The notes beneath the pieces were generated by a model. It made no database searches. It had not been told where the DNA came from and was given only the letters and a program-made list of their open reading frames with translations. Below are positions 35,389 through 58,524 of a stretch of 64,000 nt of DNA, one piece after another. The translations under genes were made by a program, and so were the position numbers. This stretch comes from Diplonema papillatum (lineage: Eukaryota; Euglenozoa; Diplonemea; Diplonemida; Diplonemidae). Position 1 is the stretch's first letter, and each line of letters opens with the position of its first letter. The DNA lies in the NCBI GenBank assembly GCA_030068145.1, contig JAPJBO010000107.1:1-64000 (forward strand), in the 5' to 3' direction.

Positions 35389-35407
35389 TGGCAACCGCTG
35401 CTTAACA
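35389..35407 (+). other. LINE 5'-junction target sequence TGGCARCCGCTGCTTAACA (copy 1)
   Basis: TGGCAACCGCTGCTTAACA immediately precedes copy 1. The full-length copy has TGGCAGCCGCTGCTTAACA at the equivalent place (58524-58506, minus), 18 of 19 identical. The element's 3' ends carry TGCTTAACA. Confidence 0.65.
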
Positions 35408-38400
35408 TGAGTCCGCACATCCTGCGACGATACGCACCTCGCGCGGGCGCCACAGGGGAGCAGGCGGTAGTCACGTATGTGCCGGAACACTACGACCGAC
35501 TCCTACTCCCGGGCAGCGCAATGGCAGAGCTGGCGCGACGTACAGGCACGGTGGAAACTGTGGCAGTCCTACAATCAATCAAAGAATCAGCAAGACAGCG
35601 GCTGATAACCGCGGGGGACGTCGGACAAAACCCTGGTCCCGGCCGCGCGGAGATGAGGTTCGCGACGTTAAACGTAACCAACCTACTACAGTATCTCCCA
35701 GCGGCCGACGCGGTGGAAGCGGATCTTCTCTGCTGCCAGGAGGTGACACTCCTACCGTGCAAGCGGGTGCAGGCGGAGGAATACCTGCGGAAATGGTGCT
35801 GCCACTGGGGTCTGCCACCACCCGGAAGACTCTGTAGGAACTCCGGTAGTCGCTCGACGATGAACGCCGCGAACGGAGGGCTCTCGACACTCTAGTGCTG
35901 AGACCGATACCGGCGTACGATACGATGACGGCGCTCTCGCACGCAGCAATACGGTCCCCGGACCGAGTGAGCCATACGGTAGTAGCAACAGGGGCCGGCA
36001 ACACGTTCGTGCACGTGTTCAATGTCTACTGCCCTTCCGGAAACGGGAGGGCGGAGAGCGAGGAGCGTGAGGACATGCTGGAGAAGATCCTCTTCGCAGC
36101 GGCGGATAGCCTCGGTGACGTCCCCATAATGGTGATGGGTGACCTGAACACAGAAGAAGACCGGTCCCCTGTACTGCGGAAGGCACTAAGGAATGGATGG
36201 TCCGACGCAGCGGAACTGCACCATGCGCGTACCGGTGACACACCACCACCACCGACCTTTACCAGCGCCCGGACATCGGGCACGAGGATCGACCGCATAC
36301 TCCTCAACCGAATAACGACGGGAGCTTTCCGCCAATGCGTCACCACCGCGGTGAACGTGCCGGGACACCGGCTCGTGACAATGACCCTGGACATTGCGGC
36401 GCTGCGCCAAATCGTGTGGCGATTTAAAGTACCGCGGGAAATCTCTACGGAGGGGGGACCCAAGTGGGGCCTCTCGGACACAGAAGCTTACAGGGAAGCC
36501 GTACAGAGACTGGCCAACTCCGATTTCGCAGAACGGCTGGCAGCACAACGCGTGGAAGAGGCCTGGCTCGAGTGGTCACGAGTCAGTGAGCAGTACTTGC
36601 AGGATGCCTTCGGAATCCCTGCGGAAGAAAGGGGAAGAAGTACAGGACGGGGGATAAAGACGTCACCTAAAAGAGTCTGCATCACGGCAAGCACTGCGAG
36701 CGACGGGTCGGGGGCGGCGAACAGCAGACAGCTACGGCTCCGGAAGGCCATCCACAGGATGGAACGCATCTGCAGCTACCTTGCGCAACGGCGCGGGCCG
36801 GAGGCAGTTCCGCATGAGGTATCCCGTTGCTGGCAGAACAGCAGGCGGCTGGCACAGGCGTGCATGAAAGATGGCCAAGGGACAGAAGGATTCCCGGATC
36901 ATGAGGAGGCGAAGCAGCTTCTCACGGCATTGCGGGAAGAGACGAGCAGGCTCGGAAAGGAAGGATCGGCGGCCAGGTTTACGAAATACCGAGACAAGCT
37001 GAACGAGAGGGCCGATGCGAGCAGACGATGTCTGACAACCATCTGCGCCGGACGCGCTGAGCCGTCGGGGGTGTTGCGAAAGGGGGCGGGAGTGACTGCA
37101 AATGTTGACGAGATGGACGAGGTGCTGAACACTGCGTGGGACCCTATCCTGCGTAAGTACAAGGACGGGCCAGAGCCGGAGTACGAGCCGTTTCGGGATC
37201 GGTTCCGGGATCACATCGGCCCACATATGATGGAAGCCGGAACAATCACGGGGGAGGAGCTGCGAATTCTGCTGAGGAAGAAGCCGAAGAAAAGCGCGTC
37301 AGGGGTGGATGGCTGGCGTATGGCTGAACTGCGGGAGTTGCCGCTCCCCCTGCTGAATGCACTTGCAGACGTCATGAACCTGGTCGAAGCAACTGGAGAC
37401 TGGCCGGCAAGCATGACAACTGCGCTGGTGTCGATGGTGCCGAAGGATGAGAGTCAAGACCCGCTGCACACAAGACCGATAACCGTCACATCCGCCGTGT
37501 ACCGCTTATGGGCCTGCCGCAGGCTGGCGGACATAGTTCTGTGGCAAGAGGAATGGATCGAAGAAGGACAGAAAGGCTTTCGACCGGGTCACCGGATCGA
37601 GGACGTCTTGATGGAAATTGGGCTCGAGATGGAGGACGCCTTGTTAGACGGGGAGCCGCTCTACGGTGTGGCGCTGGACTTCCGGAAATGCTTCGACATG
37701 GTCCCGCGAGAGATAGTACTGCGCTTAGCCGAGGACTTAGGATTGCACAATCGGGTTCTCAAGCCGCTGAGGGCTATCTACAGACTGCTCGCGAGACGCT
37801 TCAAGCTACCATTAGGGGTGGGCAGGGAGTTCAGGGTGACCAACGGTATCCTTCAAGGGTGCCCTGTATCCGTCATACTCATCAATGCCCTGCTGTCGGT
37901 AGTGATGAAAACGGTCAAGAAAGAAGCGGGGGGTGTGAGTCCAAAGTCATACGCGGACGACGCCACACTGCTGTCCAGGCTGTCGGAGGCCGCCCTGCAA
38001 AAGGGAGTGGACGTAGTAGACGAGTTCTGCACACTCACCGGGATGGAGCTAAACCTCCAGAAGACGGTCGCGTTCTCGACGAGACGTAGGCATCAGTCGA
38101 CTCTCAAACTCCGCAGCGTGGATGCGCTGCTGCGGTTTAGCAAATCCGTCAAGTGCCTCGGGGTCCTAGTCTCGACGGCGAAGAATAGGACGGAAAGGTC
38201 CGACTCGGAGAGGGTGGAGAAGGCGGCTGCCCTGGCGGAAGGCCTCCGCCATGCGCCGTTCCGGTACGAAAAGCGGGTCCGGATTGTGCAGTCGAATGTG
38301 CTACCGGCGGCGCTGTCAGGCTGCTCTTTCGCGCCGGTATCGAAGGTGGCGATGAAACGGCTGACGACGTCGGTGATGGGACTGATCTGGGGTGGATCCA

Positions 38401-40676
38401 ACCCGAAGCGCGCGAGGGAGATGGTCCTAAACTTTCAGGAGAAGGGCCACCTGACGGATCCCGGTACATGCCTAGCATATAGGGTGACGACAGCGTTTTA
38501 CGCGGCGTGCGAGAGGTTGCCACGACTGCTGCCTCTGATGGAGAGCATCCGGGGAAGATACGCCGAGGGGGACCTACCCCTGGGGCCAGTTGGACTGGCG
38601 ATGAGGAGCATGGAGGAGTGTGGATACGTATGGGGACCCGGGCCCCTGTCTCGCACGCTGAGGAATGGTGCAACATATGACCCGTTAGCCTCGGCACCTT
38701 CGAAGAGGGGACATGAAGTTAGGGCGGACTTGAGGGCGAAGACGTGGTCCCGACTGGTGGCGAGGCGGCCGGGATTTGAGGGCATACAGAGAGCCGACCT
38801 GGAGCGGACGAACACCTTCTGGAGGATGCGTGAATGTCCCGCGCACACCGCGAGGCTAATACGTGTAGCGTTGGCGGGGGGTGTGAACACGGCTGAGTAC
38901 ACGTCGCGGATGAGGCAGGCCGGAGCTGAGCCGCAGGCGCCCAGCTGCAAGCACTGTGGAAGCGGCGACACCGAGGACGAGAAACACGTATTCTGGGACT
39001 GCGGAGCGTACTCGCACATACGGCGACGAGAGGCACATGCCGAGCTGATGGCAGCCAACCGGGCCGACTGGCCCAGATGCACGCTGGAACACGGTGTGGT
39101 AGTACCCGAGAATGCCCAATTCTCGAGGCGGCTCCAGGAGATGATGGCTGAAATCCTTGCGGAACGGGCTGGGCTCGAAGCACGTGGCTGGGTGGCCAGG
39201 AACCCCACGACCCCCTGGTCGAGAGCGGATGCGATGCCTGCCGAGAAATTTGACCACCCCTTCGCGCGGATTGCCCCGGCATGGACGTGGGAGCGGAACA
39301 AGACCTGGGGACTACCGACGTTTTATGCGTTGGTAGCGTGGCTGTCGGACATGCAATGGACCGAGAACGGGCAGGCGTCAATGCTGGAGCTTGCGATCGA
39401 CTTTGAACTCTTCTCGGGCCTCAGCATGCCGCTGCACGGGAATGCGCCGAAGGGGGTGAGAGAACGGGGAAACGTCCTGCGCTGCATGATGAGCGCGTTG
39501 GACAAGCTGGCGGCACAGCAAGGGCTGGGAAGCTGCATGAGAGGAGAGAGGGTGTGCCCGACGACGTCGCTGTCGTTCATGGGCATCACGGGGATATCGG
39601 GTATACGGCCCAGGCCACGCTTTCGCGAGGCACACACGGGGACGATACTTGAGGAACAAGTGAAAGGAAGCGATGTAGGGACGCAGTGCCCGACGTACCC
39701 TGACTGGACGATCGGGAGAGCGGCGAGGTGGGCCCTGCCTGCCCCACCACAACTACACCCAGACCCCGTGCATATGCCGGGAGTCGGAAAAGAGAAGGCA
39801 CTCGTCACATGCGCGACCCATCACAAAGGGAAGTGTGAGGCGTGCAAAGCACTCGTCCGAAGGGACGTTCCCACGGTAGAGATGTGCTGCCGGCACCATC
39901 ACCACGCGAACGATGGGCAGCCGATCGCGGTGTGCACAGAGCACAGCACGACGAAGTGCGGCGAGTGCAAGACGGCGGCGGCGTGTTGCCGCAGCGGGCA
40001 TCATGCCTGCCGCACGCATGGCAGAGCCACCTGCCAAGAGTGCAGAAGGCTCCCTACGCTGACGCAGAGGCGACCGGCGGCATGTTGCAGCCGCGGCCAC
40101 CACCAGTCCAACAAGACGAACGTCCAGTCAACCCCCGGACGCAGCAAGAAGAAGAGGCCCTCCTCACCCACCCAGGTGAGTGTACAGCGGGAAACGCCAG
40201 TAGGAAAGCGAGCGGCGCGAGCGCCGCTCGCGGCAACGAAAAAGGAAACAGCGTCGACCGGACGGGCAACCAAGAGGCCGCCACCAACGCCAGGAACCAG
40301 CGAACGACCAGCGCGGAAGAAGAGGGTGCTCGGCACCCCGAAGGAAGGCCCGATCGCCGGCCGCAAGCGGAAGAAGACGAAGGCGACCACACCCGACTCA
40401 GGGGTGCATCGAAGGAAGAAGAAGGTACCAAGGGCAAGCAGCTCTCAGAAACGACCGGGGACCACGGGCACACCAATGCCCTCGAAAGTGGAAAACGGGC
40501 ACTCCTGCCCGCCATCGTACTCGCCGACTCAGTCTCTGGAATCGCAAGAAAGCCAAACCCCGCTAGCTCCACAAAAAAAATGCTCGACCTTGACGACGCA
40601 ATGGCAGGTGACGACGTCATCCGAGAACCTGACTTTCAAGGCAGTGCATGTTGATCCGTGTGGTTCATGTACTTAA
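35408..40676 (+). pseudogene. EN-RT polyprotein of LINE copy 1 (2-bp frameshift)
   Basis: The leader begins with ATG at 35407 (the A is the last base of the target motif) and runs through DVGQNPGP, a 2A motif with the conserved Glu changed to Gly, into the endonuclease domain. At about 35889 two extra bases (GA, against the full-length copy's GGGCTCTCCACTC) shift the frame and end the first ORF at 35895. The second ORF (35895-40676, 1,593 aa) is otherwise complete: endonuclease GDLNTEED and GTRIDRIL, RT GFRPGHRIEDVL, ALDFRKCFDMV, GILQGCPVS and SYADDATLL, CCHC finger, Cys/His module and basic tail. The tail ends out of register with the intact copy (LQGSAC instead of the LDLDDAMAGDDVIR ending), so there is also a 3'-proximal frame change. 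Confidence 0.85.
35617..35640 (+). other. 2A motif, mutated (DVGQNPGP)
   Basis: This occupies the same position as the intact DVEQNPGP of the full-length copy. The Glu, which is strongly conserved in working 2A peptides, is Gly here. Confidence 0.75.
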
Positions 40677-42335
40677 AAGAACTCAATGCTTAACACGCTG
40701 GAACACGGAGTGGTAGTACCCGAGAATGCCCACTTCTCAAGGCGGCTCCAGGAGATGATGGCTGAAATCCTAGCGGAACGGGCAGGGCTCGAAGCACGAG
40801 GCTCGGTAGCCAGGAACCCCACGACCCCCTGGTCGAGAGCGGATGCGATGCCTGCCAAGAAGCTCGACCACCCCTTTGCGCGGATTGCCCCGGCATGGGC
40901 GTGGGAGCGGAACAAGGCCTGGGGACTACCGACGTTTTATGCGTTGGTGGCGTGGCTATCAGACATGGAGTGGACCGAGAACGGGCAGGCGTCAATGCTA
41001 GAGCTTGCCATCGACTTTGAACTCTTTTCAGGCCTCAGCATACCGCTGCACGAGAATACACCGAAGGGGGTGAGGGAGCGAGGAAACGTCCTGCGCTGCA
41101 TGATCAGCGCGTTGGACAAGCTGGCGACACAGCAAGGGCTGGGGAGTTGCGAGAGAGGCGAGAGAGTATGCCCGACGACGTCGCTGTCGTTCATGGGCAT
41201 CACGGGGATATCGGGGGTGCGGCCCAGGCCCCGCTTTCGCGAGGCACACACGGGGACGATCCTCGAAGAGCAGGTGAAGGGAAGCGATGTAGGGACGCAG
41301 TGCCCGACGTACCCGGACTGGATGGCCGAGAGAGCGGCGAGGTGGGCCCTGCCTGTCCCACCACAGCTGCACCCCGACCCCGTGCATATGCCGGGTGTCG
41401 GAGTAGAGAAAGCACTCGTCACCTGCGCGACCCACCACAAGGGGAAGTGTGAGGCGTGCCGAGCACTCGTCCGAAGGGACGTACCCACGGTAGAGATGTG
41501 CTGTCGGCACCATCACCACGCTGACGATGGGCAGCCGATCGCCGTGTGCGTGGAGCACAGCACGACGAAGTGCGGCGAGTGCAAGACGGCGGCGGCGTGC
41601 TGCCGCAGCGGGCATCATGCCTGCCGCACGCATGGCAGAGGAACCTGCCAAGAATGCAGGAGGCTCCCTACGTTGACGCAGAGGAGACCGGCAGCGTGCA
41701 CTTATCGGTGGATCATGCTATTGCGCTAGTGATATCAGTTACAAAGACTCCCACCATCACAGTAGTATGTCGTTTTGAAGAAACCGCGGAGGGCCGACCG
41801 CACACGATTGGGATGCACAGAGCGTATCATCAAATCACAGCCAACTTCAACGTCAAACGCAAGACTGGCCATTCGCGGCTTTCTTTTTTTTGTAAAAGCA
41901 CCTGCTTTGCAGGAAATGCTTGAGGAGGCTGCCAGCTGCAAAATATCAAAAGAAGTAAATGCGCTGTAGCCCACACGAAACACAGGTAAATCTGGGTTTA
42001 GTGGCGGGCGTGAGCACAAGGCAGTCCCTCGAGTATTTTCTTAGTGCAATCCTCCCGCACCTCCCGAGTGTTCTCAACATCACGCGCCGCCCCTATCCTG
42101 ACCGCTTGTCGGATGTTGAAAGGGAAAGGTCGCGAGCAGGAAAACCTCAACGTTTCCTTCCCGCCTGCTTCTTTTTTCCCGAAAAAGAAGTCCCGTTGTT
42201 CGAAGCATGTAGCTTTTTGGTTGTAGCCACAATTGCAACGTGTGTGCGGAAACTGAACCGCTTGAGAAAGACCCTCTGCGTCAGGTCTGGACAGAGCATT
42301 CTTTTCCAAACACCATTTATCATAGATGGCCGGTT

Positions 42336-42440
42336 GATAACGTTATATAACGTTATATAACGTTATAACGGTGATAACGTTATATAACGTTATATAACGT
42401 TACATAACGGTCGAAAACGCAAAATAACGGAAAAAATAAC
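42336..42440. repeat. palindromic decamer array AACGTTATAT
   Basis: GATAACGTTATATAACGTTA repeats about seven times with small variations and degenerates into GGTTATTTTGCG-like units; strongly self-complementary. Confidence 0.8.
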
Positions 42441-42449
42441 GCAAATAAC

Positions 42450-42855
42450 GGTTTTTAGAATTTTTCCGATTTTGGCCATGTTTCCAGATTTTTGTCATTT
42501 TTTCCTCATTTTGGTCCATTTCGGTCATTTTTTCCGATTTTGGCCATTTTTGCCAGATTTTGGTCAATCTTAGCCAATTTTTCCAGACTTTTGCCGATTT
42601 TTTCAGGTTTTGGCCATTTTGCCGATTTTTTCCAGATTTCGGCAATCTTTGCCGATTTTTCCAGATTTCGGCCATTTTTGCCGATTTTTCAAGATTTTGG
42701 ACAATTTTGAGATTTTGGCCACTCTGGCCGATTTATCCAGATCAGTCAATTTCGGCCATTTTTTCCGATTTTTCCAGATTTCCCGATTTTCCAGATTTTG
42801 GTCAATTTCGGCCATTTTTGCCAATTTTTCCAGACTTTTGCCGATTTTTGGATCC
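42450..42855. repeat. degenerate satellite CCAGATTTTGGCCATTTTTGCCGATTTTT
   Basis: Combinations of TTTTCCAGATTT, CGGCCATTTTT and GCCGATTTTT recur for about 400 bp. The long Phe-rich frames across it are artefacts of the repeat. Confidence 0.8.
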
Positions 42856-44178
42856 CGGTCACAAAAACTGTTCGGAAACAAACCCTGGTCCGAAAAGAAT
42901 TCGTAGTAACCGGTCCTCAGGGGTCCGTATAGCCCCTCCCCAGAGCTTTTTCTCTTTTACTTATTTTCTTGCGAACTTCCACCCAAGCGCGACAAACGCG
43001 ATCCTTCCGGATTCACATGACTCTTTCACTGTGCGATGTTGTTCTTGGGATGTGGATGTCTGCAGTTTTGGGTTTCCGGCGCGTGTCCCTCAGTCGGTGG
43101 CCCGTAACGGTCGTTTGCAGTGTCCTTCGTGAGGCAGCAGATGTCACCAGCATGATCCGGCCACTGGAGTCCAACTTGTCCAAGCTTGTCCACTCGGCAG
43201 ACCGTTGCGTACTATGCCAGTCAGACAAGGTCCCAGTACCAAATATGGGTGCATGATGAGCACGAGACATGCAAAGTCGAGCAGTCACAGCTGGCGCTTC
43301 CCGTAGAACCCAGCCAGCCCGGGGTCGGTTTTCTTGATCCGCTGCCACCATCAACCAAACGAACCTAACGCCCCGGCAACCCCCGGACACAGCAAAAAGA
43401 AGAAGAGACCCCTCTCACCCACCCAGGGGGGCGTACAATGTGAAACGCCGGCGGGAAAGCGCGCGGCGCAGGCGCCGCCCGCCGTAGCGAAGCAGAAGAC
43501 GGCGACGACCGGACGGGCAGCCAAGAGGCCGCCACCAAAGCCAGGGACCGGCGAACGACCAGCGTTGAAAAAGAGGGTGCTCGGCACCCCGAAGGAGAGC
43601 CCGATCGCCGGCCGCAAGCGGAAGAAGGCGAAGGCGACCGCACCCGAGTCAGGGGTGCAACGAAGAAAGAGGATGGCCCTTAAAGCAAACAGCTACCAGA
43701 AACGTTCGACGTCCCCAAGCACTCCAGTGCCCTCGAGAGTGAAAAACGTGCAAGATTGTCCGCACCTGTGCCCCTCCACGCAATCTCCAGAACCGCAAGA
43801 AAGCCCAGCGCCCCTGGCGCCACAAGTACTCGACCTTGACGACGCAATGACAGGTGACGACGTCATAAAGTAACCTTAAGCGGCGGCACAGTGCATGCTA
43901 ATCCATGTGGTTCATGTACTTAAAAGAACTCAATGCTTAACAGTGCTCACGTGGGCGGTGTCTTCGGACAGCACCTCGTGATGTTCGCATCACAAAACAA
44001 AGAAGACAGTGAAATGGTCGTTACCTGGTCGGGTTTCGCTCGCGACCGTTTCCTGAACAATCCTTCACTAAATCCGCGGTTAAATAACCTGGCCTCAGTG
44101 GTGCAAGCACCACGCGCTCTTCAAACCCAAGAAACATTTTCCCCCCTCCTGGTGCAACCCACCCACCTTAGCTTAATT

Positions 44179-48545: not shown

Positions 48546-48549
48546 AGGA

Positions 48550-48632: not shown

Positions 48633-48748
48633 TCGTGCTAGTCACAAGTTATCAAATATAACTAGTTATAAAATAACTAGTTATTTTCACAAGTTATGTA
48701 CCTTACTAGTGCGTCGTGCAGTTGCCTTGGAGGCTGGGTGGTCGAATT

Positions 48749-48883: not shown

Positions 48884-49143
48884 AGTGACAGGTAGCGTCC
48901 CCCCTCCGCAGTGAAAATAGCCTGTATATATACATATATAGGGGGGGGGGGGGGGGGGGTCAGGTCAGATTCTGCCAACGACTCCGCAATCTGGCCGCTT
49001 AGGGCCACCCCTGGGGGTGGGGTACCCACCCACACCTCGTTGCCGTCCGGCTGACAACGATGCCGAGTTTAGGGGCCTTAGCATCAGCACTGGGGGGGGG
49101 GGGAAATGTAAATCTTGATAAAAACGCACACAGTCAGGTGCTA
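48884..49143. other. spacer with a 22-base G run; no gene
   Basis: It contains TATATATACATATATA, the G run (48942-48959) and a second G run near 49092. No coding sequence was recognised. Confidence 0.4.
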
Positions 49144-50112
49144 TCAGCCAATTTTCCTTCGCTTGGGAATAGGCCCCGTCGGTTTGTCCTCTTCTTCCTC
49201 CTCTTCGTCTTCTTCGTCTTCTTCATCTTCTTCGTCATCTTCTTCTTCTTCTTCTTCTTCGTCTTCGTCTTCGTCTTCCTCTTCCCCATTCTCATTCTCA
49301 TCCGTATCACCTTCTTCCTCTTCCTCCTGGTCATCTGAATCTGCAACCTCTTTTGCTACCCCTCTGGCAGCTGTCATCTTCTTCTCCAGCACTTCGAACA
49401 CGGACACACCTTTTTTGGTGCTTGTGTCTCGCTTCCTCAATAAGCGGCGGGTTTTGAGCGACAGCCAGATGGTGGAACAGAGGGTAATGAAACCCTCTGC
49501 GGCGTCCACCCTCGGGCCCATGTCCCGTATCATAAGTTCCGCTGAGAGGGTTTTCACGTCGACCTGCGTGCGCTTCAGGGTGGCGTAGCGCAGCCGGGCA
49601 TACAGCCTTTCAGCCTTGTTGGAGCTACAAGAACTGAAAATGAGGGCGTACTCCAGTGCCTTGCGAACCCGGCCCTTCACCTTGTCCAGCACCACAAACC
49701 AACCGCCCCACCCCATCCCCAGCTTTCTCACCTCTGTCTTGGCGATTAGCCACTGTTCTTTCGTGAACTCTGCCGATTCCTTTTCAAGGCCCGCCTCCTG
49801 CATCCCCAGTGTTTCCATCACCACCTCGAGGTCATCGTCGGCGTATTCGGCGAGATCCTCGTCAGACAGGCACGTTATCTTGTACACGTTCATCATGCGC
49901 AGGAGAGCTGTCTCCACAGCACCGTAGTGGCGAAGGTTTGCCAAGCACTCAATGGCCAGATCGGTAGCGCGGCGCCGCATGCTTCCCGGTACCTGCTTGT
50001 TTTGCAGCTCTTCTAGTTCGGTGATTGCTTCGCCCACCGAAAAGTCGAAATGCAACAAAATTGCATGTTCCCCCTGTGCGACGAGGCTCGGTTTCTGGGC
50101 AATTGAAAACAA
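49144..50112 (-). pseudogene. partial hAT-like C-terminal ORF with long acidic tail
   Basis: The frame opens with TTG at 50112; the first ATG is about 45 codons in, so the N-terminus is missing or in another exon. The segment IFSSCSSNKAERLYARLRYATLKRTQVDVKTLSAELMIRDMGP resembles the hAT C-terminal dimerisation block (C-x-N-x-ERxF...L). The upstream half is helical without a DDE core. The last ~70 residues are almost all Asp/Glu, encoded by CTTCTT/CGTCTT repeats, ending KPTGPIPKRRKIG. It starts only 120 bp from the 3' end of the full-length LINE, so the LINE may have cut off its 5' part. A domesticated gene is the alternative. Confidence 0.5.
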
Positions 50113-50225
50113 CTCGCCAAAGAACTGCGTAGTTTTGTTTTATTCTTTTACTTGTTAGTTGTCGACAACTTTTTTTGTATTGAGGTGTCATTCAGATGTA
50201 AATCCAAAGCCGCCCACGTCAAATT

Positions 50226-50235
50226 TTGTTAAGCA
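50226..50235 (-). other. 3' target duplication of the full-length LINE
   Basis: TTGTTAAGCA here (minus: TGCTTAACAA) equals TTGTTAAGCA at 58505-58514 on the other side of the element, a candidate 10-bp target-site duplication. TGCTTAACA is also present at the 3' ends of copies 1 and 3. Confidence 0.6.
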
Positions 50236-50294
50236 TTGAGTTCTTTTAAGTACATGAACCACATGGATTAGCATGCACTGCCTTGAAAGTCAGG

Positions 50295-53200
50295 TTATCG
50301 GATGACGTCGTCACCTGCCATTGCGTCGTCAAGGTCGAGCATTTGCGGAGCTAGCGGGGTTTGGCTTTCTTGCGATTCCAGAGACTGAGTCGGCGAGTAC
50401 GAGGGCGGGCACGTGTGTCCGTTTTTCACTTTCGAGGGCATTGGTGTGCCCGTGGTCCCCGGTCGTTTCTGAGAGCTGCTTGCCCTCGGTACCTTCTTCT
50501 TCCTTCGTTGCACCCCTGAGTCGGGGGTGGTCGCCTTCGTCTTCTTCCGCTTGCGGCCGGCGATCAGGCCTTCCTTCGGGGTGCCGAGCACCCTCTTCTT
50601 CAGCGCTGGTCGTTCGCTGGTTCCTGGCGTTGGTGGCGGCCTCTTGGTCGCCCGTCCGGTCGTCGCCGTCTCCTTTTTAGTTGCCGCGAGCGGCGCTCGC
50701 GCCGCTCGCGCCGCTCGCTTTCCTACTGGCGTTTCCCGCTGTACACCCACCTGGGTGGGTGAGGAGGGCCTCTTCTTCTTGTTGCGTCCGGGGGTTGACT
50801 CGACGTTCGGCTTGTTGGACTGGTGGTGGCCGCGGCTGCAACATGCCGCCGGTCGCCTCTGCGTCAGCGTAGGGAGCCTTTTGCACTCTTGGCAGGTCCC
50901 TCTGCCATGCGTGCGGCAGGCATGATGCCCGCTGCGGCAACACGCCGCCGCCGTCTTGCACTCGCCGCACTTCGTCGTGCTGTGCTCTGTGCACACCGCG
51001 ATCGGCTGCCCATCGTTCGCGTGGTGATGGTGCCGGCAGCACATCTCTACCGTGGGAACGTCCCTTCGGACGAGTGCTCTGCACGCCTCACACTTCCCTT
51101 TGTGATGGGTCGCGCACGTGACGAGTGCCTTCTCTATACCGACACCCGGCATATGCACGGGGTCTGGGTGTTGTTGTGGTGGGGCAGGCAGGGCCCACCT
51201 CGCCGCTCTCCCGATCGTCCAGTCAGGGTACGTCGGGCACTGCGTCCCTACATCGCTTCCTTTTACTTGTTCCTCAAGTATCGTCCCCGTGTGTGCCTCG
51301 CGAAAGCGTGGCCTGGGCCGTATACCCGATATCCCCGTGATGCCCATGAACGACAGCGACGTCGTCGGGCACACCCTCTCTCCTCTCATGCAGCTTCCCA
51401 GCCCTTGCTGTGCCGCCAGCTTGTCCAACGCGCTCATCATGCAGCGCAGGACGTTTCCCCGTTCTCTCACCCCCTTCGGCGCATTCCCGTGCAGCGGCAT
51501 GCTGAGGCCCGAGAAGAGTTCAAAGTCGATCGCAAGCTCCAGCATTGACGCCTGCCCGTTCTCGGTCCATTGCATGTCCGACAGCCACGCTACCAACGCA
51601 TAAAACGTCGGTAGTCCCCAGGTCTTGTTCCGCTCCCACGTCCATGCCGGGGCAATCCGCGCGAAGGGGTGGTCAAATTTCTCGGCAGGCATCGCATTCG
51701 CTCTCGACCAGGGGGTCGTGGGGTTCCTGGCCACCCAGGCACGTGCTTCGAGCCCAGCCCGTTCCGCAAGGATTTCAGCCATCATCTCCTGGAGCCGCCT
51801 CGAGAATTGGGCATTCTCGGGTACTACCACACCGTGTTCCAGCGTGCATCTGGGCCAGTCGGCCCGGTTGGCTGCCATCAGCTCGGCATGTGCCTCTCGT
51901 CGCCGTACGTGCGAGTACGCTCCGCAGTCCCAGAATACGTGTTTCTCGTCCTCGGTGTCGCCGCTTCCACAGTGCTTGCAGCTGGGCGCCTGCGGCTCAG
52001 CTCCGGCCTGCCTCATCCGCGACGTGTACTCAGCCGTGTTCACCCCCCCCGCCAACGCTACACGTATAAGCCTCGCGGTGTGCGCGGGACATTCACGCAT
52101 CCTCCAGAAGGAGTTCGTCCGCTCCAGGTCGGCTCTCTGTATGCCCTCGAATCCCGGCCGCCTCGCCACCAGTCGGGACCACGTCTTCGCCCTCAAGTCC
52201 GCCCTAACTTCATGTCCCCTCTTCGAAGGTGCCGAGGTTAACGGGTCATACGTTGCTCCATTCCTCAGCGTGCGAGACAGGGGCCCGGGTCCCCATACGT
52301 GTCCACACTCCGCCAGTCCAACTGGCCCCAGGGGTAGGTCCCCCTCGGCGTATCTTCCCCGGATGCTCTCCATCAGAGGCAGCAGTCGTGGCAACCTCTC
52401 GCACGCCGCGTAAAACGCTGTCGTCACCCTATATGCTAGGCATGTACCGGGATCCGTCAGGTGGCCCTTCTCCTGAAAGTTTAGGACCATCTCCCTCGCG
52501 CGCTTCGGGTTGGATCCACCCCAGATCAGTCCCATCACCGACGTCGTCAGCCGTTTCATCGCCACCTTCGATACCGGCGCGAAAGAGCAGCCTGACAGCG
52601 CCGCCGGTAGCACATTCGACTGCACAATCCGGACCCGCTTTTCGTACCGGAACGGCGCATGGCGGAGGCCTTCCGCCAGGGCAGCCGCCTTCTCCACCCT
52701 CTCCGAGTCGGACCTTTCCGTCCTATTCTTCGCCGTCGAGACTAGGACCCCGAGGCACTTGACGGATTTGCTAAACCGCAGCAGCGCATCCACGCTGCGG
52801 AGTTTGAGAGTCGACTGATGCCTACGTCTCGTCGAGAACGCGACCGTCTTCTGGAGGTTTAGCTCCATCCCGGTGAGTGTGCAGAACTCGTCTACTACGT
52901 CCACTCCCTTTTGCAGGGCGGCCTCCGACAGCCTGGACAGCAGTGTGGCGTCGTCCGCGTATGACTTTGGACTCACACCCTCCGCTTCTTTCTTGACCGC
53001 TTTCATCACTACCGACAGCAGGGCATTGATGAGTATGACGGATACAGGGCACCCTTGAAGGATACCGTTGGTCACACTGAACTCCCTGCCCACCCCTAAT
53101 GGTAGCTTGAAGCGTCTCGCGAGCAGTCTGTAGATAGCCCTCAGCGGCTTGAGAACCCGATTGTGCAATCCTAAGTCCTCGGCTAAGCGCAGTACTATCT

Positions 53201-56200
53201 CTCGCGGGACCATGTCGAAGCATTTCCGGAAGTCCAGCGCCACACCGTAGAGCGGCTCCCCGTCTAACAAGGCGTCCTCCATCTCGAGCCCAATTTCCAT
53301 CAAGACGTCCTCGATCCGGTGACCCGGTCGAAAGCCTTTCTGTCCTTCTTCGATCCATTCCTCTTGCCACAGAACTATGTCCGCCAGCCTGCGGCAGGCC
53401 CATAAGCGGTACACGGCGGATGTGACGGTTATCGGTCTTGTGTGCAGCGGGTCTTGACTCTCATCCTTCGGCACCATCGACACCAGCGCAGTTGTCATGC
53501 TTGCCGGCCAGTCTCCAGTTGTTTCGACCAGGTTCATGACGTCTGCAAGTGCATTCAGCAGGGGGAGCGGCAACTCCCGCAGTTCAGCCATACGCCAGCC
53601 ATCCACCCCTGACGCGCTTTTCTTCGGCTTCTTCCTCAGCAGAATTCGCAGCTCCTCCCCCGTGATTGTTCCGGCTTCCATCATATGTGGGCCGATGTGA
53701 TCCCGGAACCGATCCCGAAACGGCTCGTACTCCGGCTCTGGCCCGTCCTTGTACTTACGCAGGATAGGGTCCCACGCAGTGTTCAGCACCTCGTCCATCT
53801 CGTCAACATTTGCAGTCACTCCCGCCCCCTTTCGCAACACCCCCGACGGCTCAGCGCGTCCGGCGCAGATGGTTGTCAGACATCGTCTGCTCGCATCGGC
53901 CCTCTCGTTCAGCTTGTCTCGGTATTTCGTAAACCTGGCCGCCGATCCTTCCTTTCCGAGCCTGCTCGTCTCTTCCCGCAATGCCGTGAGAAGCTGCTTC
54001 GCCTCCTCATGATCCGGGAATCCTTCTGTCCCTTGGCCATCTTTCATGCACGCCTGTGCCAGCCGCCTGCTGTTCTGCCAGCAACGGGATACCTCATGCG
54101 GAACTGCCTCCGGCCCGCGCCGTTGCGCAAGGTAGCTGCAGATGCGTTCCATCCTGTGGATGGCCTTCCGGAGCCGTAGCTGTCTGCTGTTCGCCGCCCC
54201 CGACCCGTCGCTCGCAGTGCTTGCCGTGATGCAGACTCTTTTAGGTGACGTCTTTATCCCCCGTCCTGTACTTCTTCCCCTTTCTTCCGCAGGGATTCCG
54301 AAGGCATCCTGCAAGTACTGCTCACTGACTCGTGACCACTCGAGCCAGGCCTCTTCCACTCGCTGTGCTGCCAGCCGTTCTGCGAAATCGGAGTTGGCCA
54401 GTCTCTGTACGGCTTCCCTGTAAGCTTCTGTGTCCGAGAGGCCCCACTTGGGTCCCCCCTCCGTAGAGATTTCCCGCGGTACTTTAAATCGCCACACGAT
54501 TTGGCGCAGCGCCGCAATGTCCAGGGTCATTGTCACGAGCCGGTGTCCCGGCACGTTCACCGCGGTGGTGACGCATTGGCGGAAAGCTCCCGTCGTTATT
54601 CGGTTGAGGAGTATGCGGTCGATCCTCGTGCCCGATGTCCGGGCGTTGGTAAAGGTCGGTGGTGGTGGTGTGTCACCGGTACGCGCATGGTGCAGTTCCG
54701 CTGCGTCGGACCATCCATTCCTTAGTGCCTTCCGCAGTACAGGGGACCGGTCTTCTTCCGTGTTCAGGTCACCCATCACCATTATGGGGACGTCACCGAG
54801 GCTATCCGCCGCTGCGAAGAGGATCTTCTCCAGCATGTCCTCACGCTCCTCGCTCTCCGCCCTCCCGTTTCCGGAAGGGCAGTAGACATTGAACACGTGC
54901 ACGAACGTGTTGCCGGCCCCTGTTGCTACTACCGTATGGCTCACTCGGTCCGGGGACCGTACTGCTGCGTGCGCGAGCGCCGTCATCGTATCGTACGCCG
55001 GTATCGGTCTCAGTACTAGAGTGGAGAGCCCTCCGTTCGCGGCGTTCATCGTCGAGCGACTACCGGAGTTCCTACAGAGTCTTCCGGGTGGTGGCAGACC
55101 CCAGTGGCAGCACCATTTCCGCAGGTATTCCTCTGCCTGCACCCGTTTGCACGGAAGGAGTGTCACCTCCTGGCAGCAGAGAAGATCCGCTTCCACCGCG
55201 TCGGCCGCTGGGAGATACTGTAGTAGGTTGGTTACGTTTAACGTCGCGAACCTCATCTCCGCGCGGCCGGGACCAGGGTTTTGTTCGACGTCCCCCGCGG
55301 TTATCAGCCGCTGTCTTGCTGATTCTTTGATTGATTGTAGAGTTCTTTGGTGATGAAGCAAAAGTGTCCGTGGCGCGGGGCTGGACTGATGTTGGGGGGG
55401 TGCAGTGGATGCCTGAGGGCTGGGCGGGGGGGGTATGGGAGCTTCTTGCGGGGTGTCCCGGCCTTGCAAACTTTGGGAGGCGGCCTCGCGCACGGCCCTG
55501 TAGGTCAGCGAGACCCGGTCGCGTGCGACATCATCGGGACGAATCCCGTGCGTCCACAGGTTCCTGGCCTCGCCTTCCATGTGGCACAGTGTGCCGACCG
55601 GCAGAGGGGTTCTCAGTCTCCGGCTCCCCCTCTCCCATTCCATGACCGTGTCGCTCAAGAGCGATATGGTCGCTACCCTCGGACCCAGTTCTCTCTGGTC
55701 TCTGTGGGGGTTGATCCCCACTCCCCTCCGGTACCAGTTGGCCAGCAACTGGTCCGGTTCCCACCCAAGGCGGTCACGTATGAGATCCGCCGCTTCTTTC
55801 AGGGGCCCCTCGGGGATACCCCGTTCCAGTCTGATCGGGGGTTCACCTAGTCTATAGGCGTGCCCCCACTGCTGGGTTTCCCTGCTGTGTCCACCCCCCA
55901 GCCTTCCCCATGGGGCTTCCGGGTTGAGCTCGGGTGCTCGGCTCAGTCTATCCAGAAGATCCCGAGGGATCGCCTGGAAACTTAGCCCCGGGATGGGTCC
56001 CTCCACCCTGGCGGGGGGGCCCTCGTTGCAAGTTGGCCGGGCACACTGGCTATTGTAGGGGGATTGTTTGTGCGCAAAACCGGGCCCTCGGGGTATCACT
56101 CCCGGGCGATTGAGGCCAGGCGCGCCGTGAGAGAGAGGGAGGGGAAAAGAGGAGGAGCAGGAATTCTCTTTTTCCGTCTCTGCGTGATCGAACTGCCTAG

Positions 56201-56303
56201 CAGGGGTGCTAGGACTCGGCAGCCCGAACGAGGGCCTCGCGCGCAGGGCAACCCGTAATGGGCTGGCGGGGCCACTGGCGCCGGGTGCGGGCTGTGGAGG
56301 TAG
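50295..56303 (-). CDS. LINE ORF2 polyprotein: AlkB-like dioxygenase - 2A - endonuclease - RT - CCHC - Cys/His module
   Basis: The frame opens directly after the ORF1b UGA (no other stop between) and runs 2,002 aa. The first Met lies inside the AlkB domain, so expression by readthrough or reinitiation is likely. The AlkB domain (about 55490-55990) has NWYRRGVGINPHRD (NxYxxG...HxD), the distal His in WTHGI and RVSLTYR (RxxxxxR): all iron and 2-oxoglutarate ligands. Next are a Pro-rich linker and the 2A DVEQNPGP. The endonuclease has CCQEVTLL, GDLNTEED, GTRIDRIL and GHRLVTMTL. The RT has SGVDGWRMAEL, GFRPGHRIEDVL, ALDFRKCFDMV, ILQGCPVSVILINALL and SYADDATLL. A CCHC finger (CKHCGSGDTEDEKHVFWDC), three Cys/His units and a Lys/Arg-rich tail ending LDLDDAMAGDDVIR follow. 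The AlkB part presumably removes methyl groups from nucleic acid; its benefit to the element is unknown. Confidence 0.9.
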   Translation of the reverse strand, partial: LPPQPAPGASGPASPLRVALRARPSFGLPSPSTPARQFDHAETEKENSCSSSFPLPLSHGAPGLNRPGVIPRGPGFAHKQSPYNSQCARPTCNEGPPARVEGPIPGLSFQAIPRDLLDRLSRAPELNPEAPWGRLGGGHSRETQQWGHAYRLGEPPIRLERGIPEGPLKEAADLIRDRLGWEPDQLLANWYRRGVGINPHRDQRELGPRVATISLLSDTVMEWERGSRRLRTPLPVGTLCHMEGEARNLWTHGIRPDDVARDRVSLTYRAVREAASQSLQGRDTPQEAPIPPPPSPQASTAPPQHQSSPAPRTLLLHHQRTLQSIKESARQRLITAGDVEQNPGPGRAEMRFATLNVTNLLQYLPAADAVEADLLCCQEVTLLPCKRVQAEEYLRKWCCHWGLPPPGRLCRNSGSRSTMNAANGGLSTLVLRPIPAYDTMTALAHAAVRSPDRVSHTVVATGAGNTFVHVFNVYCPSGNGRAESEEREDMLEKILFAAADSLGDVPIMVMGDLNTEEDRSPVLRKALRNGWSDAAELHHARTGDTPPPPTFTNARTSGTRIDRILLNRITTGAFRQCVTTAVNVPGHRLVTMTLDIAALRQIVWRFKVPREISTEGGPKWGLSDTEAYREAVQRLANSDFAERLAAQRVEEAWLEWSRVSEQYLQDAFGIPAEERGRSTGRGIKTSPKRVCITASTASDGSGAANSRQLRLRKAIHRMERICSYLAQRRGPEAVPHEVSRCWQNSRRLAQACMKDGQGTEGFPDHEEAKQLLTALREETSRLGKEGSAARFTKYRDKLNERADASRRCLTTICAGRAEPSGVLRKGAGVTANVDEMDEVLNTAWDPILRKYKDGPEPEYEPFRDRFRDHIGPHMMEAGTITGEELRILLRKKPKKSASGVDGWRMAELRELPLPLLNALADVMNLVETTGDWPASMTTALVSMVPKDESQDPLHTRPITVTSAVYRLWACRRLADIVLWQEEWIEEGQKGFRPGHRIEDVLMEIGLEMEDALLDGEPLYGVALDFRKCFDMVPREIVLRLAEDLGLHNRVLKPLRAIYRLLARRFKLPLGVGREFSVTNGILQGCPVSVILINALLSVVMKAVKKEAEGVSPKSYADDATLLSRLSEAALQKGVDVVDEFCTLTGMELNLQKTVAFSTRRRHQSTLKLRSVDALLRFSKSVKCLGVLVSTAKNRTERSDSERVEKAAALAEGLRHAPFRYEKRVRIVQSNVLPAALSGCSFAPVSKVAMKRLTTSVMGLIWGGSNPKRAREMVLNFQEKGHLTDPGTCLAYRVTTAFYAACERLPRLLPLMESIRGRYAEGDLPLGPVGLAECGHVWGPGPLSRTLRNGATYDPLTSAPSKRGHEVRADLRAKTWSRLVARRPGFEGIQRADLERTNSFWRMRECPAHTARLIRVALAGGVNTAEYTSRMRQAGAEPQAPSCKHCGSGDTEDEKHVFWDCGAYSHVRRREAHAELMAANRADWPRCTLEHGVVVPENAQFSRRLQEMMAEILAERAGLEARAWVARNPTTPWSRANAMPAEKFDHPFARIAPAWTWERNKTWGLPTFYALVAWLSDMQWTENGQASMLELAIDFELFSGLSMPLHGNAPKGVRERGNVLRCMMSALDKLAAQQGLGSCMRGERVCPTTSLSFMGITGISGIRPRPRFREAHTGTILEEQVKGSDVGTQCPTYPDWTIGRAARWALPAPPQQHPDPVHMPGVGIEKALVTCATHHKGKCEACRALVRRDVPTVEMCCRHHHHANDGQPIAVCTEHSTTKCGECKTAAACCRSGHHACRTHGRGTCQECKRLPTLTQRRPAACCSRGHHQSNKPNVESTPGRNKKKRPSSPTQVGVQRETPVGKRAARAARAPLAATKKETATTGRATKRPPPTPGTSERPALKKRVLGTPKEGLIAGRKRKKTKATTPDSGVQRRKKKVPRASSSQKRPGTTGTPMPSKVKNGHTCPPSYSPTQSLESQESQTPLAPQMLDLDDAMAGDDVIR
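50830..51120 (-). other. three-unit Cys/His module in LINE ORF2
   Basis: Three successive units follow C-x2-H-x4-C-x2-C-x(6-18)-CC-x1-3-H-H: CATHHKGKCEAC...CCRHHHH, CTEHSTTKCGECKTAAACCRSGHH and CRTHGRGTCQEC...CCSRGHH. The spacing suggests a zinc-binding tandem domain. It is also present in copies 1 and 3 and, decayed, at 24.2 kb. I do not know a named family for it. Confidence 0.6.
55269..55292 (-). other. 2A ribosome-skipping motif (DVEQNPGP), intact
   Basis: LITAGDVEQNPGP matches the 2A consensus D-V-E-x-N-P-G-P exactly and lies between the AlkB-Pro-rich part and the endonuclease. In 2A peptides translation releases after the Gly and resumes at the final Pro, so AlkB (with any ORF1 readthrough portion) would be separated from EN-RT. 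Confidence 0.85.
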
Positions 56304-56306
56304 TCA
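56301..56306 (-). promoter_or_regulatory. putative leaky stop UGA-CUA between ORF1b and ORF2
   Basis: ORF1b ends AGC TGA CTA CCT. The frame continues open through 68 codons to the AlkB region and on to 50295. UGA followed by CUA is the best-known readthrough-promoting context in animal and viral genes. No in-frame ATG is available near the start of ORF2. Confidence 0.65.
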
Positions 56307-57896
56307 GCTCGTGCAAGTCTTGCACGCGCTGACGTCGCAGCCCTCGCATTCCAAGCGAAGCTGACCCTTCGCCTTCTTCTTCCTACACACGCCGCAGGTG
56401 TAGCCAGCTGCGGCCTTCGTGGGGGTCCCGAAGGCGTGGACGTGCTCTGCACCGTCCATCCGGGCGTCGCTTCCCGCGGGAGCCGGCCCGTCCCCTGCCG
56501 GCTCCGGCGTCTTCCTCTTCTTCTGCGCTGCCGCGTCCGCTGGCGGGGCCGCTGGCGGGGCCGCTGGCGGGGCCGCTGGCGGGGCCGCTGGCGGGGCCGC
56601 TGGCGGGGCCGCTGGCGGGGCCGCTGGTGGAGCCGCTGGTGGGGCCGCTGGCGGGGCCGCTGGTGGGGCCGCTGGTGGGGCTGCTGGCGGGGCTGCTGGC
56701 GGGGCTGCTGGCGCTGCTGGCGGGGCCGCCGGCGGGGCTGCTGGCTGCGGCTCGTCTTCCTCCGGCGCCGGCAGCCGCATCCGCCGCTTCCCGCTGGGGC
56801 TGGCAGCGAGCCGCCTGCGCCGCTCCCTCGGCATCTCCCCTCCGTCGAAGGGATTCACCCGGAGGTCGGGTGCCTCATCCCGCTGCAGCACGCGGAACGG
56901 GGGGTCGGTGGCCGACGTCACGACGCAGACCCGCACCCCACCTCGCAGGAACGACGTGACGACGTCTGCCTGCCAGCCGGCCTGCCGCAGGACGTGCTCC
57001 ACGTCCGCCTCGTGCTCGCGTGGCGCCGCGCCCATGAGCAGGAAACGCGGCTTCGATTCGAGGGGGGCAGCGGCGTGTTCGCCGGCCGCCGCACGCACCT
57101 CTTCCAGCGCGGCGTCGCTGCGTGCGCGTACGAGGAGGCGTTTGCCGGCGAGCACGAGACCGGCGGCCGCCCCGCCTGCCCGCTTCGCCACTTCCAGGGC
57201 GACCGCCCTCGTGGCCCCCTTCTGCAGGGCGACCACCGGCATGCTGTCCCGGCACGCCTTCTCCGTCGACCGCCAGAAGCAGCCATCCCGACCGGAGCTG
57301 GCCAGGATCTCGTCGGCATGGGCGCGGGGCACCCGCACGACCAGCTCGCGCCGCCCCTGCTGCGACGACACGCCCCACATGGTGTCGTCGCGGACACGTA
57401 TGTCCATCTTTAGGGCCGCCCTGACGGCCCTTCGGCATAGGCGTGTCAGCGCCGTGCGGGGGTCCTTCTCCACGCAAGACCACGTCTCCTCCGACGCGTG
57501 TTTGCGGGCCACGACGAAGGCCAGCACCGTCGTGGCAGCGGTCGGCTTCACCGCGCCGACGGGCACTCTCTGCACTGTCACCTGCCCCCGCTGGCGCACC
57601 GGTTCTCCGCCCGTCCACAGGTACATCTCTTGTACCCTTCCGCCCACCATCAGCACGGGGCCCCGTCGCGCGTCGCTGAAGGTCTCACGGCACAGCACGC
57701 CAAGGCGCACCCGCTTCCCGTCGCGCTCCGCGACGTCCACCGCATCCGCAGCGGGTCCCTTCGCTTCCTCTGCTGCGGCGGCGCTGGGGGCGACCCAGAG
57801 CCCAGCCCCGACCGCCTCGAAGTTGGGTTCTGGGAGGACCGGCGCGTCCCAGTCGGCGGCGTCGATCTCGCAGGGCGGCGGGGGCCGCCTGGTCAC
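56304..57896 (-). CDS. LINE ORF1b, gag-like protein with C-terminal CxxC finger
   Basis: The frame is open from 58229 but has no ATG or GTG before GTG at 57896, one base overlapping the stop of ORF1a (GTGA). The product, about 530 aa from there, has an acidic N-terminal patch (CEIDAADWDAPVLPEPNFEAV), a basic central region with probable RRM-like alpha/beta order (LVVRVPRAHADEILASSGRDGCFWRS, PRFLLMGAAPREHEADVEHVLRQAGW), a 200-bp AAPP repeat, and a final finger CGVCRKKKAKGQLRLECEGC...CKTC. This fits an ORF1 nucleic-acid-binding chaperone. Translation likely depends on a -1 shift from ORF1a across the CAG repeat or on stop-start coupling at GTGA. Alternatively, variation in repeat length has simply broken one original ORF. 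Confidence 0.65.
   Translation of the reverse strand: MTRRPPPPCEIDAADWDAPVLPEPNFEAVGAGLWVAPSAAAAEEAKGPAADAVDVAERDGKRVRLGVLCRETFSDARRGPVLMVGGRVQEMYLWTGGEPVRQRGQVTVQRVPVGAVKPTAATTVLAFVVARKHASEETWSCVEKDPRTALTRLCRRAVRAALKMDIRVRDDTMWGVSSQQGRRELVVRVPRAHADEILASSGRDGCFWRSTEKACRDSMPVVALQKGATRAVALEVAKRAGGAAAGLVLAGKRLLVRARSDAALEEVRAAAGEHAAAPLESKPRFLLMGAAPREHEADVEHVLRQAGWQADVVTSFLRGGVRVCVVTSATDPPFRVLQRDEAPDLRVNPFDGGEMPRERRRRLAASPSGKRRMRLPAPEEDEPQPAAPPAAPPAAPAAPPAAPPAAPPAAPPAAPPAAPPAAPPAAPPAAPPAAPPAAPPAAPPAAPPAAPPADAAAQKKRKTPEPAGDGPAPAGSDARMDGAEHVHAFGTPTKAAAGYTCGVCRKKKAKGQLRLECEGCDVSACKTCTS
56534..56750 (-). repeat. 15-bp minisatellite in LINE ORF1b (Pro-Pro-Ala-Ala)
   Basis: GGCGGGGCCGCTGGC-type units repeat about 14 times on the plus strand with a few substitutions, in frame with ORF1b as AAPPAAPP. 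Confidence 0.85.
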
Positions 57897-58009
57897 GTCC
57901 GCCCAGGTGGGCGCGTTCCCTTGCCGGGGGCGTTGTGGTTGCTGCTGCTGCGGCTGCTGTTGGTGTTGCTGCTGTTGCTGTTGGTGTTGCTGTTGCTGTT
58001 GCGGTTGCC

Positions 58010-58074
<65 letters not shown>

Positions 58075-58348
58075 GGTGCTGCTGTTGCTGCTTCGGTTGC
58101 TGCTGCTGCTGTTGCTGTTTCGGCTGCTGCTGCTGCTGCTGCTGCTGCGGTCGCTGCTGTTGCTGCTTCAGTTGCTGCTGCTGCTGCCTTGGTGGTTGCT
58201 GCGCCGGCTTGCCGCTCCGCGCTTCGATCCTACGCCTGAGCAGCGTCGTTGCCACGTCGATGATGCCGTAAACGGCATCCAGCTCGTCGAGGGCGGCGAG
58301 CTCAGCCATCCCCCGCGCCTCCTGGATCAGGACGTTGATCCTGTCCAT
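57893..58348 (-). CDS. LINE ORF1a, short helical protein with polyQ/polyS
   Basis: The ATG at 58348 gives about 151 aa (a TTG-started frame extends to 58474). The start MDRINVLIQEARGMAELAALDELDAVYGIIDVATTLLRRRIEA is likely an alpha-helical, possibly coiled-coil, segment. It then runs into Gln-rich and Ser/Asn-rich stretches encoded by CAG repeats and ends NHNAPGKGTRPPGRT. The stop TGA overlaps the GTG of ORF1b. It overlaps ORF1b's open frame by about 336 bases, in the -1 register. It probably forms the N-terminal part of a single ORF1 product by frameshifting. Confidence 0.55.
57940..58200 (-). repeat. CAG/CTG trinucleotide tract
   Basis: Plus strand CTG repeats with interruptions; the longest pure run (about 58013-58073) has 20 units. 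It encodes Gln or Ser in ORF1a and Gln then Ala in ORF1b. Confidence 0.9.
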
Positions 58349-58505
58349 CGCTTCCGTTTGGGTGAGCAGCGGGCAGCTCGTGTTCTTTAAGCGGGTGGGT
58401 ACCGCTGTTGTGTTAAGGGGGTGTTCGTCCTGGATGTTGTCCGGGCGCACTTTACCGGCCGCGTGAGCAGCCAATAAAGTACAGAAACTGTAGCTTTTAA
58501 ATCGT

Positions 58506-58524
58506 TGTTAAGCAGCGGCTGCCA
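58506..58524 (-). other. LINE 5'-junction target sequence (full-length copy)
   Basis: The minus strand reads TGGCAGCCGCTGCTTAACA, against TGGCAACCGCTGCTTAACA at copy 1. See the site-specificity finding. Confidence 0.65.

Follow-up and report, generated by a model that had tools for sequence, protein, structure and literature searches.

In a stretch of 64,000 nucleotides from the marine single-celled flagellate Diplonema papillatum (positions 1 to 64,000 of contig JAPJBO010000107.1, assembly GCA_030068145.1; hereafter the window) we have analyzed a long interspersed nuclear element (LINE) whose second open reading frame (ORF2) contains an AlkB-type dioxygenase, a 2A peptide, an APE-type endonuclease (EN) and a reverse transcriptase (RT), in this order. 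The insertion bearing this ORF2 is located on the minus strand and is referred to here as copy 1. Two further close copies of the LINE (copies 2 and 3) are found on the plus strand of the same window. ORF2 of copy 1 is a single open frame of 2002 codons (56303..50295, minus strand), with its stop ending at 50295. The coordinates of the features are collected in Table 1.

An AlkB-type Dioxygenase in ORF2 of a LINE

Three regions of ORF2 matched Pfam families above the respective cut-offs, i.e., 2OG-FeII_Oxy_2 (PF13532; 45.0 bits vs. a cut-off of 31.2, E 1.9e-11, residues 178–269), Exo_endo_phos (PF03372; 34.8 vs. 24.5 bits) and RVT_1 (PF00078; 73.9 vs. 29.6 bits), and the motifs GDLN and YADD (the latter at 52961..52950 of the minus strand) were found as well. 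As the APE-like endonuclease precedes the RT within one ORF, both above the Pfam cut-off, and the close copies are 5'-truncated and have a common 3' end and boundary repeats, copy 1 is an APE-type non-LTR (long terminal repeat) retrotransposon. An LTR element was considered and not favored, given the APE-type EN together with the absence of long direct terminal repeats in a repeat scan of positions 48500–59500. A host ALKBH gene lying beside a LINE was likewise set aside, the single frame, the 2A and the boundary repeats all speaking against it.

The four motifs quoted in the initial annotation of this DNA, made from the letters alone, are all on the minus strand, within the range that it gave for the element and in one frame: NWYRRGVGINPHRD (55739..55698), WTHGI (55556..55542), RVSLTYR (55517..55497) and DVEQNPGP (55292..55269). 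The sequence bears out what was claimed there about the class of the element, the full set of AlkB catalytic motifs and the 2A between the AlkB and the EN-RT, and the AlkB assignment, which the annotation had left to a profile search, is confirmed by the PF13532 match. It had also stated that ORF2 begins with the AlkB. The domain is indeed part of ORF2 but does not stand at the start of the frame, where a leader of 104 residues comes first. DVEQNPGP (residues 338–345), between the AlkB and the endonuclease, agrees with the 2A consensus D[V/I]ExNPGP (PMC4981915).

The motifs HRD, WTHGI and RVSLTYR correspond to the HxD...H iron ligands and the RxxxxxR of the AlkB family. HRD and WTHGI were aligned to ALKBH8, and the alignment with ALKBH3 covers the HxD and the second His through to the end of the RxxxxxR, so that by its sequence the domain looks complete. 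With the AlkB sequence of ORF2 alone the closest solved structure was ALKBH8 (E 6.7e-7), while a profile made from three AlkB sequences matched 25 distinct sequences of solved structures at E<=0.01. The best matches were ALKBH8 (4.4e-11) and ALKBH6 (9.3e-8), and further ones were 5yl6 ("Uncharacterized protein P8A3.02c," 1.1e-7), ALKBH3 (ca. 3e-5) and ALKBH2 (ca. 3e-4). The likeness to ALKBH6 lies in the N-terminal half of the domain (W..L.GR..Q.WG). Pfam found no ALKBH8 partner domain in ORF2, and the bacterial AlkB equivalog TIGR00568 was discarded (13.9 bits vs. the 231.05 required). Among viral contigs scanned with the AlkB alignment 10 stretches fitted a pattern, none of which was confirmed as a relative. 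The GC content by codon position of the AlkB (0.68/0.53/0.72) was similar to that of EN and RT. Its 171 codons remained free of stops in 35 of 5000 mononucleotide shuffles, and codons 1–348 of ORF2 in none of 5000. The C-terminal part of ORF2 contains unusual Cys/His-rich repeats (CATHHKGKCEAC, window 50842–51116, minus strand), and a diverged relative of this part is present at window 23995–24467 (plus strand).

Different Modules Upstream of the 2A

Between the 2A edge and the 3' end, copies 1 and 2 are 98.2% identical (5136 aligned positions, 35569–40695 vs. 55340–50227). The homology sets in sharply at ...CTACAATCAATC, where the 2A peptide begins, and upstream of this edge no similarity between the two copies was detected by blastn, with which an alignment by sight agrees. 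Where copy 1 carries the AlkB, copy 2 carries just the tail of an OTU-like module, which reads SPHILRRYAPRAG... and is 98% identical over 53 residues to protein P0011 (DIPPA_26192, which represents a cluster of 5). In P0011 an OTU-like domain is joined to the same 2A-EN (95.5% identity to ORF2 over 266 residues). This protein gave an E value of 0.047 with OTUD3, with the PGDGxCxF motif aligned, and one of 3e-5, in a single comparison, with the above-threshold OTU found at window 58656–60914. The presence of different modules at one spot of near-identical copies is a sequence pattern hinting that these elements swap helper enzymes. If so, the 2A does more than split ORFs, as it marks the junction at which helper modules differ between near-identical copies.

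Copy 2 is a dead, 5'-truncated copy, with DVGQNPGP as its 2A and two or more indels that break the frame. Along the EN-RT, copies 1 and 2 differ by 28 synonymous and 32 nonsynonymous changes, giving a crude dN/dS of 0.38 (0.34 if three doubtful ones are left out).

Related Proteins in Diplonema

We have carried out a protein search with ORF2 in which the 8000 candidates with most shared words were scored (threshold E<=0.001). Nine proteins matched, six of them named as from D. papillatum, three with EN-RT and three with AlkB. The three EN-RT proteins (P0002, P0003 and P0004) belong to the same LINE (99, 90, and 91% identity, in clusters of 73, 23, and 10 sequences). P0002 and P0003 begin at an ATG located 3' of the 2A and P0004, a partial sequence, further downstream, and for this reason they are uninformative on the region before the 2A. 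Copy 3 is nearer to the subfamily of P0003. The more distant EN-RT relatives P0005, P0009 and P0010 have GEASHPGP, GEAQNPGP or DVERNPGP before the endonuclease, so that a 2A or 2A-like motif at this place may be old in the LINE group of copy 1.

P0006 (a single sequence), in other respects an unrelated gene model, ends in an AlkB with 93% identity to the one in copy 1. The AlkBs of P0007 (cluster of 8), P0012 (cluster of 3) and P0008 (a single sequence) have 59–73% identity to that of copy 1, varying by stretch, and the catalytic motifs are invariant in the three sequences aligned. P0007 and P0012 are identical over the AlkB stretch and therefore not independent of each other. The BLAST alignments of ORF2 with P0007, P0008 and P0012 stop at residue 275, and in an unfiltered tblastn the alignment of the AlkB continues through the linkers with 52% identity and gaps. 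After its AlkB, P0007 has a sub-threshold OTU (21.0 vs. 23.3 bits) and then a pre-RT-like stretch, whose match in the ORF at window 390–4286 covers the part before the RT domain and just reaches into it. P0008 matches the C-terminal end of this same ORF. These architectures of P0007, P0008 and P0012 are provisional, being those of gene models with possible false introns, and the gene model of P0007 bears the name of a tRNA enzyme.

Boundaries and Spliced Leader

At its 5' end copy 1 has a spliced-leader (SL) sequence, identified with a 39-nt leader that we take to be that of Diplonema and preceded immediately by TGCTTAAC(A). The leader lacks its initial 3–6 nt, the exact number being masked by the overlap with the boundary repeat TGCTTAACA. 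The sequence used as reference is listed as a euglenozoan spliced leader (PMC3795323), and the SL exon of Diplonema is described as 39 bp long (PMC10161547). All three close copies have the same 3' end point and TGCTTAACA at their boundaries, one boundary being common to copies 2 and 3, which abut. Copy 3 begins exactly at the 3' end of copy 2 (40687–40695), as if the boundary repeat of the element itself had been the target. Across the 64 kb there are five occurrences of the 8-mer TGCTTAAC, each of them at an element boundary. The evidence lies in this placement, because the number alone is not significant (5 vs. 1.55 expected, with up to 6 in 60 simulations).

The repeat at copy 1 had at first been read as a simple target-site duplication (TGCTTAACAA), a view that was broadened when the repeat turned up at copies 2 and 3 too. 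As all three copies have TGCTTAACA at their 3' ends, it may be part of the 3' end of the element as well as of the target. In their 5' flanks copies 1 and 2 agree at 31 of 39 positions, and outside the repeat at 22 of 30, a value equalled by one of 20000 window segments. Copies 1 and 3 both have ACGTGGGCGG in their 3' flanks, with a one-base offset. Insertion into a preferred target is thus a provisional reading of these flanks, with two target loci only. Searches for the name of this target gave no Rfam match in the window at gathering thresholds and no tRNA by ARAGORN in the joined flanks.

With the SL at the 5' end and repeats at either end, copy 1 appears to have been integrated in one piece, its 5' end being that of a trans-spliced RNA. 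What these features mark is one insertion event, which is not proof that a single RNA held both AlkB and EN-RT, as a template switch during copying would look alike. The SL at the 5' end ties the template of this LINE to the spliced-leader system.

Table 1. Positions of the features of copy 1 and of the close copies 2 and 3 in the window.
Feature	Position	Strand	Remarks
5' boundary repeat TGCTTAACA	58506..58514	-	Target-site duplication or target motif
Spliced-leader sequence	58472..58506	-	Last 35 nt of 39, 5' end of template RNA; exact match, 0 in 100 shuffles
First ATG after SL	58346..58348	-	Other frame than long ORF1; CAG-repeat region between
ORF1, long frame, 641 codons	56304..58229	-	Gln-rich, Ala/Pro repeats, Cys-rich C-terminus
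TGA CTA	56301..56306	-	Sole stop between ORF1 and ORF2 (shared frame)
ORF2 leader, residues 1–104	55992..56303	-	Flat GC over codon positions, without ATG
AlkB-type dioxygenase domain, residues 105–275	55479..55991	-	Pfam; profile and structure-database alignments
2A region LQSIKESARQRLITAGDVEQNPGP	55269..55340	-	5' edge is the point where copies 1 and 2 cease to be homologous
APE-type endonuclease, residues 359–568	54600..55229	-	PF03372 match
Reverse transcriptase, residues 953–1186	52746..53447	-	PF00078 match
ORF2 C-terminal part	50295..52745	-	CCHC-like motif from 51980; Cys/His-rich repeats from 51116
3' boundary repeat TGCTTAACA of copy 1	50227..50235	-	Common end point of the homology among the three close copies
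5' boundary repeat of copy 2	35399..35407	+	
Copy 2	35408..40695	+	5'-truncated; tail of OTU-like module, then 2A (DVGQNPGP) and EN-RT; ends in TGCTTAACA (40687–40695)
Copy 3	40696..43942	+	5'-truncated, interrupted ca. 41709–43338; ends in TGCTTAACA (43934–43942)

Translation of the AlkB

The first ATG in the frame of ORF2 is at 55643 (residue 221), inside the catalytic core of the AlkB, and the sole earlier ATG of the region (55911) is in another frame. With no ATG in frame before residue 221, the AlkB needs either readthrough of the stop that separates it from ORF1 or a non-ATG start. UGA-CUA is reported as the consensus for high readthrough in human cells (PMC4359377), which may not hold for Diplonema. 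A structured readthrough signal after the UGA was considered and is unsupported by the folding (z -1.5). The match of ORF1 to C1_2 was sub-threshold (14.8 vs. 26 bits).

Proposed Mechanism and Alternatives

The best explanation as a whole is that copy 1 is a full-length APE-type non-LTR insertion with an ALKBH6/8-like AlkB as helper module. Taken together with the steps that follow, we regard it as plausible, falling just short of probable. The RNA of copy 1 would be a trans-spliced, SL-capped mRNA from which ORF1 would be translated first, and a minority of ribosomes would read through the UGA-CUA to produce an ORF1-AlkB chain. The 2A would end this chain and the EN-RT would be made as a separate protein. 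The freed dioxygenase, possibly still joined to the ORF1 protein and held to the element RNA via ORF1, could then oxidatively strip methyl groups that mark the RNA or block reverse transcription, e.g., near a presumably methylated 5' cap region of the SL, thereby evading a host mark or clearing the way for the RT. The boundary at the 2A would act as a port, other copies holding an OTU-like module instead of the AlkB.

We favor this explanation because the domains are in order, the AlkB motifs are complete with affinity to ALKBH8 and ALKBH6, the modules differ at the 2A edge, the AlkB is conserved as a protein, the insertion appears to be one unit, the UGA-CUA is in frame with no ATG for the AlkB, and the dN/dS of the EN-RT and a precedent in orchids (see below) agree with it. 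AlkB is used in tRNA sequencing to let RT pass, and in kinetoplastids the cap and the first four nucleotides of the SL are heavily methylated. The leader copied in copy 1 ends approximately there, blurred by the overlap with the repeat, which makes demethylation of an SL-capped template attractive. In a broader proposal, which we put forward tentatively as a possibility, Diplonema LINEs would have a 2A-bounded cargo port. Whole enzyme modules (AlkB, OTU-like protease) would be exchanged on the immediate 5' side of a common 2A-EN-RT core, and also from one element family to another, and an element of the AlkB type would rid its SL-capped template of methyl marks, either ahead of reverse transcription or in the course of it.

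Several observations weigh against the best explanation. Only a single copy was seen to have the AlkB joined to 2A-EN-RT, and the OTU assignment of P0011 is below the Pfam cut-off (18.7 vs. 23.3 bits). The first ATG of ORF1 in copy 1 (58348) and its long frame (58229..56304) disagree, which may be due to a copy-specific frameshift, an assembly error or recoding, and ORF2 is five residues short compared to copy 2 and P0002. The GC content of the leader is flat over codon positions (0.66/0.65/0.66) and it stays open in 572 of 5000 mononucleotide shuffles, so that its openness proves nothing. The RNA after the UGA does not fold significantly (16 of 200 shuffles equal it). These properties of the leader and of the RNA count against readthrough. 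Directly behind the 2A there is an ATG for the EN-RT itself (55256), an alternative start with which the 2A would possibly not be needed for EN-RT. By analogy with ALKBH8, which acts on tRNA, the substrate of the AlkB could be tRNA.

Copy 1 might instead be a one-off fusion, a case that the initial annotation had named as one that would refute it and that the different module in the other long copy of the window leaves in play. It would be a chimeric retrocopy formed when the RT jumped at the 2A edge from the RNA of a 2A-EN-RT LINE onto the 5' part of the RNA of another element (SL-ORF1-AlkB), and the AlkB would then be the property of a different element family. The sharp loss of homology between copies 1 and 2 at precisely this edge points in that direction, as do the single finding of AlkB-2A-EN and the occurrence of AlkB in a second gene-model family (P0007 and P0012), and the 5' SL and the repeats at both ends fit equally well. 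However, the joined parts share one frame without stops and the 2A is complete, P0007 is too divergent in its AlkB (56–73% identity) to be the donor, both P0011 and copy 2 have their OTU-like arrangement joined at this very 2A edge, and the 93% identical AlkB of P0006, with the related ones of the P0007, P0008 and P0012 clusters, argues against a one-off event. We consider such a chimera rather unlikely. The codon-position GC, similar to that of EN and RT, and the catalytic motifs that have been kept make it highly improbable that the AlkB is a functionless passenger, i.e., a captured fragment of a host ALKBH gene with little or no translation, even though the AlkB lacks an ATG and the leader lacks periodicity. 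The 171 open codons and the conservation of the AlkB in a second family speak against it as well.

With respect to the substrate, the AlkB, as an ALKBH6/8-like enzyme, could act on host molecules in place of the element RNA, altering tRNA or host mRNA in such a way that the element (its leaky UGA, for example) would be translated or tolerated by the host. The closest structural relatives (ALKBH8 and ALKBH6), a 2A that would free the AlkB to diffuse and the tRNA-enzyme name of P0007, with its related AlkB, are consistent with a host-directed action. Yet sequence affinity does not fix the substrate and the ALKBH8 partner domain was not found in ORF2 by Pfam, and we judge this action improbable. 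AlkB and ALKBH2/3 repair alkylated DNA, and the matches of the profile to ALKBH3 and ALKBH2, as well as the encoding of the AlkB together with EN-RT, would agree with repair or demethylation of DNA at the target or of the cDNA during target-primed reverse transcription. Here the better matches to ALKBH8 and ALKBH6, and a 2A that would part the AlkB from EN-RT, the DNA-bound protein, leave little probability for an action on DNA. Should the preferred explanation, a LINE that demethylates its own template, be true, it would provide a testable case for RNA methylation limiting retrotransposition and for selfish elements fighting methylation.

Comparison with Known Systems

The AlkB domains of plant RNA viruses are of the bacterial type and, unlike copy 1, are found in genetic parasites with no reverse transcription. 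In the case of L1Tc of Trypanosoma cruzi and the animal LINEs with 2A, we know of no enzyme module upstream of the 2A. The RNA viruses concerned (Alpha- and Betaflexiviridae, Closteroviridae) are reported to have an AlkB that demethylates RNA in vitro (PMC9289625). The same source describes a retrotransposon with an AlkB-family (ALKBH5-like) ORF in the orchid Phalaenopsis, a Ty3/Gypsy element near Ogre of the Tat family, in which the cofactor residues are kept and the protein has RNA demethylase activity in vitro. However, the orchid element is an LTR retrotransposon with the ALKBH5-like ORF expressed apart from Gag-Pol (PMC9289625), whereas copy 1 is a non-LTR element with an ALKBH8/6-like domain in frame with EN-RT and a 2A in between. 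The canonical D[V/I]ExNPGP of copy 1 is also that of L1Tc and of animal APE-type LINEs (PMC4981915). An extra N-terminal enzyme domain that varies between LINE families, a Ulp1-like protease, is known in NeSL and in one Utopia family (PMC4640811). These differ from copy 1 in having a protease and a restriction-like endonuclease, and the accessible part of that source describes no AlkB or 2A. The best solved-structure matches of our AlkB, ALKBH8 and ALKBH6, are in turn cellular proteins, and the ALKBH8 partner domains are absent from ORF2.

AlkB in retrotransposons (orchid), 2A in LINEs and extra protease domains in LINEs are already known. Among the titles and abstract openings listed by a literature search that covered few subscription journals we found no description of a LINE with AlkB, and the same holds for those listed on Diplonema or diplonemid elements. 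If our reading is true, copy 1 would be, within the literature covered, the first LINE with its own AlkB enzyme.

Neighboring Elements in the Window

A further element is present at window 390–7486 (minus strand), where the RT ORF mentioned above (390–4286, PF00078) lies downstream of an ORF of 971 codons. The RT ORF has, by eye, a 2A-like VDGCVEPHPGP near its start. The 971-codon ORF contains a ubiquitin carboxyl-terminal hydrolase domain (PF00443, E 3.6e-8), another protease beside a Diplonema RT. Just upstream of copy 1, the ORF with the above-threshold OTU domain (58656–60914, minus strand) has, by eye, RT-like motifs (GLPLGANASPDLANLY and YMDD) and no Pfam RT match. Tandem repeat arrays are located beside or between elements at window 42460–42848 and 8124–8518.

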